Positions 7,501 to 12,240 of a stretch of DNA of 64,000 nt are shown in pieces. Source of the stretch: Gemmatimonadaceae bacterium (GTDB lineage Bacteria > Gemmatimonadota > Gemmatimonadetes > Gemmatimonadales > Gemmatimonadaceae); NCBI GenBank assembly GCA_020852815.1, contig JADZAN010000046.1, positions 1 to 64,000 on the forward strand, read 5' to 3'. A program made the translations under genes and the position numbers. Below the pieces are notes generated by a model. It searched no databases and had not been told where the DNA came from. It saw only the letters and a program-made list of their open reading frames with translations. Each line of letters opens with the position of its first letter. The stretch's first letter is position 1.

Positions 7501-8031
7501 TCAGATGAAGATCACCTGCGCCCCGTCCGACTTCTCGAAGAACTCCATCGCCGTGATCACGTCTTGCACCTGCGGCACCAGCTCCTCGCGCGCGATCCCC
7601 ATCATCTCCATCGCCATCTGGCAGGCGTACAACTCGGCGCCCGCGTCGCTGAGGGTCTCGAGCAGTTCGCGCACCGTGGGAACGTCGATCTCGGCGATCT
7701 TCCTCTTCATCATGTGCGTCGCCAGGCCCTCTACGCCCGGCAGCCCGGCGAGCATTGCCGGCATGTGCGCGCCGGGATTGCCCACCACGCCGGCGTGGAG
7801 CTTGTCCACCGTCGACTCGCGGATGATGTCCATCCCCCAGAAGGTGAAGAAGAGCACGGCGTCGATCCCCATCATGCGCGCCGCATTGGCCAGGATGAGG
7901 CCGGGGTAGGCCATGTCGAGGCTCCCCTTGGAGCAGATGATCGCGACCTTGCGGTTGGTGGCGCGGGCATCGTTGTTGGCGCCGCTCGTGGCGCCGGCCG
8001 GCACCGCCGCAGTCTCCAGCGCGGTAGTCAT
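7501..8031 (-). CDS. DsrE/DsrF/DrsH-like sulfur-relay protein
   Basis: DsrE2-type small protein thought to carry persulfide sulfur to partner proteins. After a low-complexity N-terminus, KVAIICSKGSLDMAYPGLIL starts the fold. FFTFWGMDIIR, MMKRKIAEIDVPTVRELLE and YACQMAMEMMGI follow, the last holding the conserved Cys likely to carry the persulfide. Last gene of a three-gene minus-strand operon after the SQR-like flavoprotein and the TusE/DsrC-like carrier, with a 40-base gap. ATG 8031 has a GAGG element upstream. Control is expected from the -24/-12 promoter at 9689-9703. Family assignment is good; the exact reaction is inferred from context. Confidence 0.85.
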   Translation of the reverse strand: MTTALETAAVPAGATSGANNDARATNRKVAIICSKGSLDMAYPGLILANAARMMGIDAVLFFTFWGMDIIRESTVDKLHAGVVGNPGAHMPAMLAGLPGVEGLATHMMKRKIAEIDVPTVRELLETLSDAGAELYACQMAMEMMGIAREELVPQVQDVITAMEFFEKSDGAQVIFI

Positions 8032-8071: not shown

Positions 8072-8386
8072 TCACACGCAGCTCTTGGGCTTGGTCAAAC
8101 CAGAGACCTTGGCCGCCAGGATGCCGGGGCCCTTCGGAAAGAGCTGGTACAACTCCTTGGTGGGGATCCCGGCAATCGCCGTGATGCGGCGCAGCCCGGG
8201 CGGCGTTCCCTGCTCTGCCGCGTCGCGCCGGCAGAACTCGATCACCTTCCAGTGGCGATCGGTGAGGGTGATCCCGGCGCGCTGCGCGAGCTCCTCGCCG
8301 ATTTCGGGAGTCCATTCCTGCGGGTTCGTCATGAAGCCGTCGTCATTGAGCTGCACCTCATGTCCCGCGATCAGTGCCATGGTCAT
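8072..8386 (-). CDS. TusE/DsrC-like sulfur carrier protein
   Basis: Sulfur-relay carrier. The C-terminal block KELYQLFPKGPG, then LTKPKSCV, is the DsrC/TusE/DsvC signature, and the penultimate Cys (residue 103 of 104) is the universal persulfide or disulfide carrier. The second Cys found about 10 residues earlier in true dissimilatory DsrC is absent, so this is a single-Cys, TusE-like form. An extra mid-protein Cys occurs in VIEFCRRD. Start ATG 8386 has a GAGG element. It follows the SQR-like gene by 18 bases, between an oxidoreductase and a DsrE protein, which points to sulfane-sulfur handling, not tRNA thiolation, but both remain possible. Confidence 0.87.
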   Translation of the reverse strand: MTMALIAGHEVQLNDDGFMTNPQEWTPEIGEELAQRAGITLTDRHWKVIEFCRRDAAEQGTPPGLRRITAIAGIPTKELYQLFPKGPGILAAKVSGLTKPKSCV

Positions 8387-8404: not shown

Positions 8405-9637
8405 TCAGCCCCGCTTCCCCGCCATGCTCATGCGCGGGCCGACGGTGGGGAGTTCGTGTCCCTTGAGCAGGACGTTCCAGTAGATCGACCGAAAGGCGAG
8501 CTTCCCCCAGTGGTTCACGCGCGTCTCCTCGAGGAGCGTGAATGGTCCAACGATGGGAAGCGGGAACCGGCCCGCGAGCGGCTCCACGTCGTAGTTGAAG
8601 TCGATGAGCGTCGCCTTGCCATAGCCCGTCTCGATGAAGCAGTTGGCATGGCCGTCGAAGCCGGGATCGAGCGGGAGGCCGGCGATGGCGCGACGCACGT
8701 TCCCGGTGAGCACCTCGGCCTGGAAGTGCGCCACCGACCCCGCCTTCGACGAGGAGAGATCGGTCGCGTCGCCAATCACGAAGACGTTCTCGAAAGCCCT
8801 GGACTGCAGCGTGTGCCGATCGGTGGGGACAAAGTCGAGTTCGTTGCCCAGCCCCGACGTGGCAATCGCTGCACTCCCGCGGTGCGTGGGGACGGTGACG
8901 AGGAGATCGTACGGGATCTCGCGCCCGTCCCAGCTCCTGAGCATGCGCGCCGAACCGTCCACTTCGCCCGTGTTGAAGGTCGTCTCGACCGCGATGCCCC
9001 GCTCCTCGAGCAGCCCTCCCATCATGTCGGAGCACCGCTTCTTGGTGAAGGCGCTGTCCAGCGGCGTGGCATACACCAGCTCGACGTCGTCGCGCATGCC
9101 GCGCCCCGCGAAGAACGCCTCGGCCAGGAAGAGAAACTCGAGCGGGGCCACCGGGCACTTGATCGGCATCTCGACCACGTTCACGACGAGCCGCCCGCCC
9201 TTCCATGTGCGCAACTTCTCGCCCAGGGCCGAGGCGCCGTCGAGCGTGTAGAAGTCGAACGCCGTATCACGCCAACCCTTGCCTGTCAGTCCCTCCGTCT
9301 CGGCGGGGACGATGCGACTCCCCGTGGCGATGATGAGGAAGTCGTAGGCGATCGATGCGCCTCCCAATAGGGTGACGCGGTTCTCATCCGGGACGATGCG
9401 GTCGACCACGGCGAGGATGAGCTTTGCGGCTGGCGGCAGCACCGCCGAGCGCCGCTTCACCAGCTCGGAGCGCGTGTAGTCGCCGAACGGAAGAAAGAGG
9501 AGTCCCGGCTGGTAGACGTGCTCGTCGTCCTGGTCGACGACGGCGATCTCCCAGTCATCCAGCGGGAGGACATGGACCAGCTTGGCCGCCATCATGGTGC
9601 CGGCGGTGCCGCCGCCAAGGATCAGGATCCGTTTCAT
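8405..9637 (-). CDS. Sulfide:quinone oxidoreductase-like FAD flavoprotein
   Basis: Pyridine-nucleotide-disulfide/SQR superfamily flavoprotein that would oxidise sulfide or a related thiol to polysulfide and pass electrons to quinone. GGGTAGTMMAAKL binds FAD, FLIIATGSRIVP is the second motif and NVFVIGDATDL the third. Candidate redox cysteines are in EMPIKCPVAPLEF, KKRCSDMM and ANCFIETGYGKA, so more than one Cys is available for a polysulfide cycle. First gene of the sulfur operon; ATG 9637 has GGAG upstream and lies about 40 bases after the predicted sigma-54 start. A non-sulfide substrate is possible, but TusE/DsrC and DsrE neighbours favour sulfur. Confidence 0.82.
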   Translation of the reverse strand: MKRILILGGGTAGTMMAAKLVHVLPLDDWEIAVVDQDDEHVYQPGLLFLPFGDYTRSELVKRRSAVLPPAAKLILAVVDRIVPDENRVTLLGGASIAYDFLIIATGSRIVPAETEGLTGKGWRDTAFDFYTLDGASALGEKLRTWKGGRLVVNVVEMPIKCPVAPLEFLFLAEAFFAGRGMRDDVELVYATPLDSAFTKKRCSDMMGGLLEERGIAVETTFNTGEVDGSARMLRSWDGREIPYDLLVTVPTHRGSAAIATSGLGNELDFVPTDRHTLQSRAFENVFVIGDATDLSSSKAGSVAHFQAEVLTGNVRRAIAGLPLDPGFDGHANCFIETGYGKATLIDFNYDVEPLAGRFPLPIVGPFTLLEETRVNHWGKLAFRSIYWNVLLKGHELPTVGPRMSMAGKRG

Positions 9638-9688
9638 CGCGCCACTCCGGGTTCGTAGTCCCAGCGTCCCGTTCGCGCGATTGGAAGG

Positions 9689-9703
9689 GCATCATGCGGG
9701 CCA
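9689..9703 (-). promoter_or_regulatory. Sigma-54 (-24/-12) promoter of the sulfur operon
   Basis: On the minus strand TGGCCCGCATGATGC matches the RpoN consensus TGGCACG-N4-TTGC at all positions but two, with invariant GG and GC correctly spaced. The predicted start is near 9677, giving a 40-base leader to the SQR-like ATG. A sigma-54 activator is encoded just upstream. Confidence 0.72.
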
Positions 9704-9789
9704 GCGCACGGTCCCGAGGCGAAGCGCAAGGGGGGCAACGCGTTAGGCACCCGGCCGCATGGGCGCGGCGCGCCCGAATGAAACGCGAC

Positions 9790-9827
9790 GTTGCAACAGG
9801 CGAAACATCGTGAAACTCGATGTTTCA
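9790..9827. promoter_or_regulatory. Palindromic upstream activating site for the sulfur operon
   Basis: The palindrome GTTGCAAC (9790-9797) is followed by a long inverted repeat: GAAACATCG (9802-9810) with CGATGTTTC (9818-9826), nested with TGAAAC-N5-GTTTCA (9811-9827). It is centred about 137 bases upstream of the predicted sigma-54 start, a normal enhancer distance. GTTGCAAC also occurs at 11679-11686 before the regulator. It also lies after the regulator's stop, so a terminator role is an alternative for the hairpin. Confidence 0.5.
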
Positions 9828-9879: not shown

Positions 9880-11667
9880 CTACAGCCGGTACTCCTTCAT
9901 CTTCCGCCACAGCGTCGTGCGGCTCATCCCCAGGGCGCGTGCCGCCTCGTCGCGGCGATAGCGCGCGCGCTCCAGCGCACCACGGATGCGCTGCATCTCC
10001 TCCTGCCCAGCCGGCGTTCCGGCCTCGCCAACCCCCACCCCGCCAGCTCCGCGCATCGCGCCATTCGCCGCCGGCAGCCGCAACGCGACGGGCGAGGCGG
10101 CGCGCGTATCCACGGCAATCCCCGGCGGCAGGTGCGTCACCTGCACCGTCTGGCCATCGCACAGCGCCGTGGCGTACTCCAGCGCGTTCTCCAGCTCGCG
10201 CACGTTCCCCGGCCAATCCCAGGAGACCAGGGCATCCAGTGCCGCCGGGGACAGGCGCAGCGCGCGCCCCCGACGCTGGCCAATGCGCTCGAGCAGGTGC
10301 GGAATGAGGAGCGTGAGATCGTCACGACGCTCGCGCAGTGGCGGCACGTGAATGGGGACGACGCGGAGACGGTAGAAGAGATCCTCGCGGAAGCGCCCTG
10401 CCGCCACCGCCGCCGCGAGATCCACATGCGTGGCGGCGATCACGCGCACGTCGGCGGTTCGCGTGCGCGACTCTCCCACGCGCTCGAACGTATGATCCTG
10501 CAGCACACGCAGGAGCTTGGCCTGCAGCGCCGGTGGCATATCACCGATCTCGTCGAGGAAGAGCGTCCCGCCCTCGGCGGCCTCGAAGCGCCCGGCGCGA
10601 TCGCGCAGTGCGCCAGTGAAGGCGCCGCGCACGTGCCCGAACAGTTCGCTCTCCAACAGCTCCGCCGGGAGCGCGGCGCAGTTCACCGCCACGAACGGTC
10701 CGCGCCGCCCCGATCGTGCATGCAGCGCGCGCGCCACCATCTCCTTCCCCGTCCCGCTCTCCCCCGTGACGAGGATAGTCGCGTCGTTGTCGTGCAGGAG
10801 TTCGATGAGTCGAAAGATGCGTTGCATCTGTGGCCCGCGCCCGACGATTCCCTCGAAGGCGGGGAGCGCATCGGCACGCGCCAGGTCCGAGCCCGGACGA
10901 ATCATGATCGCCGTTCTCGCCCCCGAGCTGCCGCAGTGCGTCGTGGCAGCGATGGGGCCGAGCGAGATGGAGACCGGGATCCCCTCGCCGTCGCGCGCGA
11001 CCAACTCGGCGGCGAGCCCTTCGCGTCGCACGCCGGCGTCGAGCGCCTGGCGCAATAGATCGGGGGCTCCATCGCGCGCATCGCGCAGGAGCAACGCCAG
11101 CGGCCGCCCGCGCAGCGCGTCAGGCGCAACGCCCAGCATCGCGGCCAACGCCGTGGATGCCGACATGACGCGCTGCCCGGCGTCGGCAATCACGTACCAG
11201 CGCCCCAGGCTGCCAAGGAGCGTCTCCAGCTGCTCGCGGCCGTCCATGACCTCGTGGACGCCGAGGGTGTGTGCCTCGGGGCTCCGCGTGTCCGCCAGGC
11301 GCAACGTCTCGATGGCCCCCGTCACGTTACCCTGCGCGTCGCGCACCACCTCGCCCGCGCGCACGACCTCGAGCTCGGCGCCGGTCCTGGTATAGACGGT
11401 GAGCGGTGTCTCGTCGACATGCCCGTGCCGGAAGACGCCACACCCCTTGAGGCACTCGCGGCAACGGATGAGCGAGATGCACGGCTTCCCGATCACGTCC
11501 GCCGCGGTAAAGCCGGTGATGCGTTCCAGCTGCGGGCTGACGGCGATGATGGTGCGGTCGGCGTCGACCTCGAACCAGCCGACACCGGAGAGCCTGGCAA
11601 TGACGTCGCGTGCGCGATCGGCTTCCGGCGGCGCCAGCGCCGGGCGATGTGGGGCGGCCTTCACCAT
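9880..11667 (-). CDS. Sigma-54-dependent activator, PAS-AAA-Fis, FisR-like
   Basis: Enhancer-binding activator that uses ATP to open sigma-54 promoters. An N-terminal PAS-type domain carries four clustered Cys (residues 63, 69, 72 and 76, in [17 protein letters not shown]), and a second PAS-like segment follows. The AAA+ domain has Walker A GESGTGKE (about 302-309), the sigma-54 contact loop GAFTGA (about 348-353) and [10 protein letters not shown]; a Fis-type helix-turn-helix ends the protein ([20 protein letters not shown]). ATG 11667 is preferred over 11703 because the later start leaves the palindromes at 11669-11696 outside the gene. FisR proteins that sense sulfane sulfur through cysteines and activate sqr are the closest known parallel. 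Sensing polysulfide here is inferred from the Cys cluster and neighbours. Confidence 0.88.
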
Positions 11668-11668
11668 G

Positions 11669-11696
11669 GCAACACGATGTTGCAACGAAACGTTGC
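11669..11696. promoter_or_regulatory. Tandem operator palindromes before the activator gene
   Basis: Two interlocked 15-base palindromes lie immediately upstream of ATG 11667: GCAACA-CGA-TGTTGC (11669-11683) and GCAACG-AAA-CGTTGC (11682-11696). Their half-sites resemble those at 9802-9826, suggesting the activator binds its own leader. No ordinary Shine-Dalgarno fits between site and ATG, so autoregulation may act on translation start as well. Confidence 0.5.
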
Positions 11697-12240
11697 GTCG
11701 CATCGGGGGATCTGCCTAAGCCGGAGGGCCGAAAGCCGGACCTCGGAAGTGAAACGCATTCACGTGCCGTCGCGGAAGGCGCGGGGGGAGGCGGTTCGGC
11801 GTCAGCGCTCGCGCCACCGCGCGGCGGGGGTGGCGTCGGTTGGTGGCGGTTGGAGGAAACGGCCGAGGCGTCGTCGCCTGGCGTGCGAATGGCGCGTGGC
11901 GAAACGGTTCAGGGGCCCATCCGCGCCCTAACGCGGAAAGGCCCCTGTGTTACGTGACCGCTCGGCGCGGTGCGCCAGACAGCCAGTGCGGATGTGCTGC
12001 GGGTCGTGCGGACGAATTGCGGACTTACTGCAGAGTTTCTGCAGACGTACTCAGTCCTGCGAGAACCCGATTACCAGCCTCTGGCGATCCGCGCCGTTCG
12101 TGGGTCAGTAGACAATGGATCACCTCCTCGTTTGCAGGTTGGGCGTTGAGGGTGCGATGGTGCGGAGAAGATATGGGGAGGCGCGCGGGACGCAATACGG
12201 ACGCTCGCCGCCGCGCGGCGCCTTGAGCGGGGCTGGCGCT
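11697..12240. other. Intergenic region with an isolated strong hairpin
   Basis: This divergent gap holds no convincing gene. Its one clear feature is a stem-loop at 11910-11947: CAGGGGCC pairs with GGCCCCTG around an inner CCGCG/CGCGG stem whose loop carries CCCTAACG, a variant of the enriched octamer. It could be the end of an unrecognised small RNA. The rest is GC-rich sequence without motifs I can name. Confidence 0.4.

Follow-up and report, generated by a model that had tools for sequence, protein, structure and literature searches.

A predicted FisR-like sigma-54 activator loop at an SQR-DsrC-DsrE2 operon in Gemmatimonadota

A FisR-like sigma-54 activator loop very probably controls the SQR-DsrC-DsrE2 operon in the window, by which we mean the whole 64,000-nucleotide stretch of DNA that was analysed. 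The evidence is comparative sequence: promoter, sites, spacing, protein architecture and the presence of rpoN, from which we infer binding, signal and autorepression. An earlier note on this DNA had proposed a sigma-54 promoter with a palindromic enhancer, and the comparison with relatives supports that interpretation in outline. The most interesting point appears to be that full and AAA-less regulators repeatedly occur with one and the same operator.

The genes of the locus lie on the minus strand in the order enhancer-binding protein (EBP), a 242 bp gap, SQR-like, DsrC/TusE-like and DsrE2-like (Table 1). The SQR-like protein scored 585 bits against NF049943 in an NCBIfam search (cut-off 525). 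NF049943 is the 'selenoprotein subtype' model of type III SQR; the window SQR exceeds its cut-off, reads through in the standard code and is apparently the cysteine form (EMPIKCPVAP). The DsrC-like protein (8386-8072, minus) has the penultimate cysteine (SCV). At the second DsrC position it has, by eye, alanine rather than cysteine (AAKVSGLTKPKSCV), and it therefore looks TusE-like.

Table 1. Coordinates of the features at the window locus and of the short regulators in relatives
Feature	Position	Strand	Remarks
DsrE2-like sulfur carrier protein gene	7501..8031	-	PF13686; NF047629 below cut-off
DsrC/TusE-family sulfur-relay protein gene	8072..8386	-	PF04358, TIGR03342
Type III sulfide:quinone reductase-like (SQR) gene, Cys form, operon gene 1	8405..9637	-	NCBIfam NF049943
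Predicted sigma-54 promoter TGGCCCGCATGATGCC	9688..9703	-	GG-N10-GC exact; equivalent site in 8/8 EBP-linked loci
UAS1, putative proximal site TGAAACGCGACGTTGCA	9779..9795	.	exact TGMAAC-N5-GTTKCA; 92 bp to first -24 base
Extra half-site GAAACATCG between UAS1 and UAS2	9802..9810	.	part of 9-bp inverted repeat
UAS2, putative distal site TGAAACTCGATGTTTCA	9811..9827	.	exact TGMAAC-N5-GTTKCA; 32 bp from UAS1
EBP gene, PAS(Cys4)-PAS-AAA+(GAFTGA)-Fis HTH	9880..11667	-	Pfam PF13426, PF08448, PF00158, PF25601, PF02954
Two overlapping UAS-like sites (11668-11684, 11681-11697)	11668..11697	.	1 mismatch each; at activator gene 5' end
Short Cys-PAS + Fis-HTH regulators heading SQR operon	L140:6631-7143, L141:6896-7417, L142:6468-7025, L143:6157-6699, L146:2768-3265

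The string that the earlier note had read as an RpoN promoter, TGGCCCGCATGATGC, is present at 9703-9689 on the minus strand, within TGGCCCGCATGATGCC. The GG/GC spacing is exact as claimed; the fit to the consensus is only partial, since 9/12 specified positions agree and, when the upstream region is shuffled by dinucleotides, the element alone gives p 0.056. The -12 part (ATGCC) is poor, and the element ranks about 20th of 127,970 positions, with about 20 in 64 kb matching equally well or better. It ends 51 nt before the SQR ATG. The 40 bases given previously are instead the distance from that ATG to the predicted transcription start near 9677.

The match in the window is significant because of the comparison with relatives and not by itself. 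EBP loci were found by searching the phylum with the sensor half of the EBP and then searching the hit families for SQR, which gave eight loci, the window and seven relatives with the EBP gene beside SQR. Orthologues without the activator, from an order-level SQR search, served as controls. 8/8 EBP loci have a sigma-54-type site 66–86 nt before the SQR ATG, at 66 nt in the window and at 71–86 nt in the seven relatives (CGGCACGATCGCTGCA, TGGTACCGGTTCTGCA, TGGTCCCGCCGTTGCC, CGGCATCGCTGTTGCT, TGGCACGGCTTGTGCT, TGGCCCTTCCCTTGCC and TGGCACCGACGTTGCA). GG and TGC are invariant in all eight, and the EBP-SQR gaps are otherwise almost unalignable, with one 19-bp match in all pairs. With sigma-54 weights and a UAS motif that were chosen after some of the sequences had been viewed, the combined p for the sigma-54 site is about 1e-9 (Fisher) and the Mann-Whitney p against orthologues without EBP is 7e-8. 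The mean score was 12.0 in EBP loci, 3.4 in no-EBP orthologues and 2.5 in short-regulator orthologues; these scores are relative, because the matrix was built on approximate published-type frequencies. Of 25 orthologues lacking that activator, none reaches the eight-locus mean. Conservation of the GG/GC element, proposed earlier as a test, is thus seen in 8/8 loci that keep the activator, and the element is absent from orthologues that lack it.

SQR might instead be expressed mainly by read-through or from a sigma-70-type promoter, the palindromes being a local repressor-type operator of the same protein and the -24/-12 match a product of chance. EBP and SQR stand in tandem, and a search of the gap between them found no terminator and no T-run, so read-through could contribute to SQR expression. 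The window -24/-12 match is non-significant alone, and the AAA-less PAS-Fis proteins that head the operon in five relatives imply that the family can work without sigma-54. We nevertheless consider this explanation improbable. Exactly the eight full-EBP loci have the -24/-12 site, spaced in helical phase with the UAS, and the short-regulator loci all lack it; the same search of the gap found no sigma-70-like promoter hexamers. Moreover, in L156 the EBP gene is divergent from SQR, which precludes read-through, yet the promoter TGGCACCGACGTTGCA is near-consensus.

The proposed enhancer consists of two sites. A direct-repeat search returned TGAAACGCGACGTTGCAA (9779) and TGAAACTCGATGTTTCAA (9811), 32 bp apart, which mark UAS1 and UAS2. 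A third half-site resembling GAAACATCG is also found in L138. The strings from which the enhancer had originally been proposed, GTTGCAAC (9790-9797) and the 9-bp repeat GAAACATCG/CGATGTTTC (9802-9810/9818-9826), are all present. Conserved palindromes do occur there, but those strings are fragments of the TGMAAC-N5-GTTKCA sites. Nor do the palindromes lie about 137 bases upstream; they are 76–123 bp from the -24 end, and 137 is the distance from their far edge to the -12 end.

The exact motif occurs only twice in the 5.38-Mb genome, both times at this locus, and 17 more sites have one mismatch, including the overlapping pair at 11668-11697. UAS sites are present in the gaps of 8/8 EBP loci (Fisher p 9e-10) and are not above chance in 20 no-EBP upstream regions. 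Pairs are spaced 32–33 bp apart in 6 of the eight loci (the window and 5 relatives). From the proximal UAS to the -24 element the eight distances are 92, 92, 92, 92, 91, 90, 101 and 103 bp, which keeps helical phase, two loci having an extra turn (Rayleigh-type p 4e-4). Conservation of the palindromes in relatives had been suggested as a check, and they prove both conserved and in phase with the promoter. The exact motif has 14 copies in 16 genomes, 10 of which sit at genes for this family's EBPs or short regulators, or at the associated SQR operons; because most copies are at these loci, the regulon looks local. The four off-locus copies were considered as regulon members and rejected, as they lie in coding sequence or at gene starts and have no sulfur link. 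They look like chance matches.

An RNA hairpin, an attenuator or a terminator of the activator transcript would be another use for the palindromes, as nucleic-acid structure rather than enhancer. The 9-bp inverted repeat at 9802-9826 comes after the stop codon of the activator gene and, in the activator transcript, would fold into a hairpin. However, the motif also stands ahead of the activator and short regulator genes, it is phased to the promoter, it is followed by no T-run in the gap, and in L156 it lies between divergent genes. We regard this explanation as highly unlikely.

The motif pair at 11668-11697, beside the activator start, was missing from the earlier note. In 10/11 other regulator genes tested, a UAS-like site lies 26–54 nt ahead of the regulator start; with the window included, 11/12 carry such a site a short way upstream. 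No -24/-12 site was found before the eleven regulator genes in which it was sought. A UAS-like site without a -24/-12 element suggests that the regulator gene is transcribed via another sigma factor and is autoregulated, and the 11668-11697 sites are probably autoregulatory.

The start of the EBP gene is uncertain. The ATG at 11667 abuts the palindrome directly, leaving no room for a ribosome-binding site, and an alternative upstream ATG at 11703 would place the palindromes within coding sequence. The start at 11703 is less likely. A conserved RTTNTCCCCGACA-like element was also noted about 25–50 bp upstream of the autoregulatory palindrome, at about 11704-11712 (minus) in the window and before the regulator genes of L135, L137, L138, L140, L142, L143 and L146. 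In its strict form, RTTNTCCCGACA, it was counted 14 times in eight genomes, and the reversed control gave 0. It is possibly a promoter element of this phylum.

The neighbouring gene does encode a predicted sigma-54 enhancer-binding protein, in line with the earlier claim. A Pfam search matched PF00158 with E 9.5e-70, GAFTGA and Walker A (GESGTGKE) are both intact, and the Fis-type HTH is a PF02954 match. Absence of rpoN had been named as grounds for abandoning the interpretation; rpoN was found, as a single gene in the genome (PF04552, E 3.9e-63). In the EBP-bearing relative G417, whose assembly is in about 580 contigs, rpoN was not matched. Against all NCBIfam equivalogs every score of the EBP is well under cut-off, and a scan of genome contigs with the full EBP returned mostly AAA+ matches to unrelated bEBPs. 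In one genome, G306, further EBP copies lie away from its SQR operon, in L134 (G306:C91) at 7800-6061 and in L139 (G306:C87). The L134 copy has GAYTGA in place of GAFTGA, and the gene after it looks phosphatase/rhodanese-type.

The first PAS domain of the EBP contains a four-cysteine cluster, C-x5-C-x2-C-x3-C, that is conserved in relatives. Among aligned relatives Cys59, Cys65 and Cys68 are invariant and Cys72 is nearly so (L143 numbering); the fourth cysteine is lost in L146. This cluster probably senses sulfane sulfur or other reactive sulfur species, which would release the AAA+ ATPase. An unlikely alternative, though one of some weight, is that promoter and enhancer are real and the signal is redox state, oxygen or a metal acting through the Cys-PAS (e.g. 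Fe-S), or a ligand of the second PAS. The regulatory cysteines of Cupriavidus FisR are reportedly C53, C64 and C71, a spacing unlike that of the conserved cluster in the window EBP. Four clustered cysteines could also bind metal, and the A. baumannii FisR, which lacks the Cupriavidus cysteines, is sulfide-responsive (PMC7315123), so that family resemblance leaves the chemistry unfixed and sensing chemistry cannot be assumed here. Against a different signal, the regulator is repeatedly linked to SQR-DsrC-DsrE2, and the incomplete conservation of the fourth cysteine argues against a four-Cys metal site.

With reactive sulfur as the probable signal, the activator loop would work as follows. RNA polymerase-sigma54 would transcribe SQR-DsrC-DsrE2 from the 9703-9688 element. 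EBP oligomers would bind the two palindromes, 32 bp or three helical turns apart, form an AAA+ ring and loop about 92 bp (about nine turns) to the sigma-54 polymerase. Once activated, the EBP would switch on sulfide oxidation and sulfur relay, and it would probably damp its own synthesis via the 11668-11697 sites.

In relatives from other families, EBP orthologues matching at 52–56% along the greater part of their sequence adjoin SQR-DsrC-DsrE2. The rest of the operon follows SQR in six of the seven relatives; in L156 it is cut by the contig end. In the SQR tree, the window SQR clusters with loci of the EBP and short-regulator types from other families of its class (support 100/98) and lies apart from its genus-mate G038 and most other order-level orthologues. 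The phylum search with the EBP sensor half found no EBP in G038 or these order-level relatives. This grouping and the absence of EBP from close relatives indicate probable acquisition of the operon together with its predicted sigma-54 switch, or else retention of both as an old paralogue.

The order-level SQR orthologues without EBP (L013, L016, L017, L019, L020, L021, L022, L024 and L025) were also inspected. An ArsR-like gene is directly upstream of SQR in L021, L024 and L025 (by eye), and several other order-level loci have an AT-rich CATAT/ATATG-type palindrome about 70–110 nt before SQR. These features suggest a different, SqrR/BigR-like control mode in the order-level relatives.

In five relatives the SQR operon is headed by a short regulator of 165–185 aa with one PAS domain, which carries the same Cys cluster, and a Fis HTH. 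These proteins have no AAA+ domain and no second PAS. Their palindromes (TGAAACAGTTCGTTTCA, TGAAACACAACGTTTCA twice, TGAGACGAAAGGTTTCA and TGAAACAGCCCGTTCCA) are found only about 30–45 nt before the regulator start, and the regulator-SQR gap contains neither a UAS site nor a -24/-12 element in any of the five loci. Proteins without AAA+ cannot remodel sigma-54 polymerase. By their predicted architecture, the short regulators must therefore repress or activate from a promoter-proximal position, as PpsR/CrtJ do. A tie between short regulators and loss of rpoN was rejected, as rpoN is present in all five genomes (partial in G402).

EBP and short loci are interleaved on the SQR tree, and its well-supported branches require the 'short' label to have changed three times or more. 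These changes may reflect transfer of either gene; the tree of Cys-PAS + HTH regulators is too weak to count events or to give the direction of AAA+ change. Both regulator types retain a Cys-PAS sensor and a Fis domain for DNA binding, along with the TGAAAC-N5-GTTTCA site. We put at about even the chances that a single sulfide-sensing regulon has moved from one transcription mechanism to another, possibly more than once, with sensor and operator kept and rpoN still encoded. If so, a sigma-54 enhancer-dependent activator and a PpsR-like promoter-proximal regulator have been interchanged, in either direction. Such a regulator shift is rarely observed while its binding site stays conserved, and the occurrence of EBPs alongside AAA-less PAS-Fis regulators that share operator and operon amounts to a natural experiment on switching control.

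Several known systems resemble parts of this one. In A. baumannii the sigma-54 activator FisR is needed for sulfide induction of the SQR/PDO operon (PMC7315123), and FisR of Cupriavidus pinatubonensis JMP134 is the founding case (Li et al. 2017, Mol Microbiol 105:373, cited in PMC12170894). By description, FisR is likewise a sigma-54 activator with an N-terminal regulatory domain, an AAA+ core and a Fis HTH, and it adjoins a sulfide-oxidation operon with SQR and a predicted sigma-54 promoter. The window EBP shares the hallmark of FisR, linkage to an SQR operon with such a promoter. It differs in several ways: a pair of PAS domains carrying a C-x5-C-x2-C-x3-C cluster forms the sensor, the adjoining operon encodes type III SQR, DsrC and DsrE2 and contains no persulfide dioxygenase gene, the phylum is another, and a two-site UAS is defined. 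Literature searches of open-access papers found no sigma-54/SQR report in this phylum. What appears to be new is the occurrence of a FisR-like system in this phylum, together with the definition of its candidate enhancer unit. FisR-type sigma-54 control of sulfide oxidation would thereby extend to the unrelated Gemmatimonadota, with a promoter and enhancer unit defined finely enough for site-directed tests.

NorR, PrpR and NifA share an AAA+ core with GAFTGA, a UAS about 100 bp upstream and a -24/-12 promoter, and differ in binding motif and target genes. SqrR and BigR also control sulfide-oxidation operons, via persulfide-reactive cysteines (PMC12170894), but they are ArsR-family repressors and belong to another protein family than the EBP. 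The short regulators are most similar to PpsR/CrtJ, which combine PAS and a Fis HTH without an ATPase and use a palindromic site of about 17–18 bp. This similarity is one of architecture alone, as the short-regulator HTH scored 25–32 bits against TIGR02040 (PpsR/CrtJ), below its cut-off of 275. PpsR/CrtJ have several PAS domains and act on photosynthesis genes, whereas the short regulators have one Cys-PAS in 165–185 aa and are linked to SQR.
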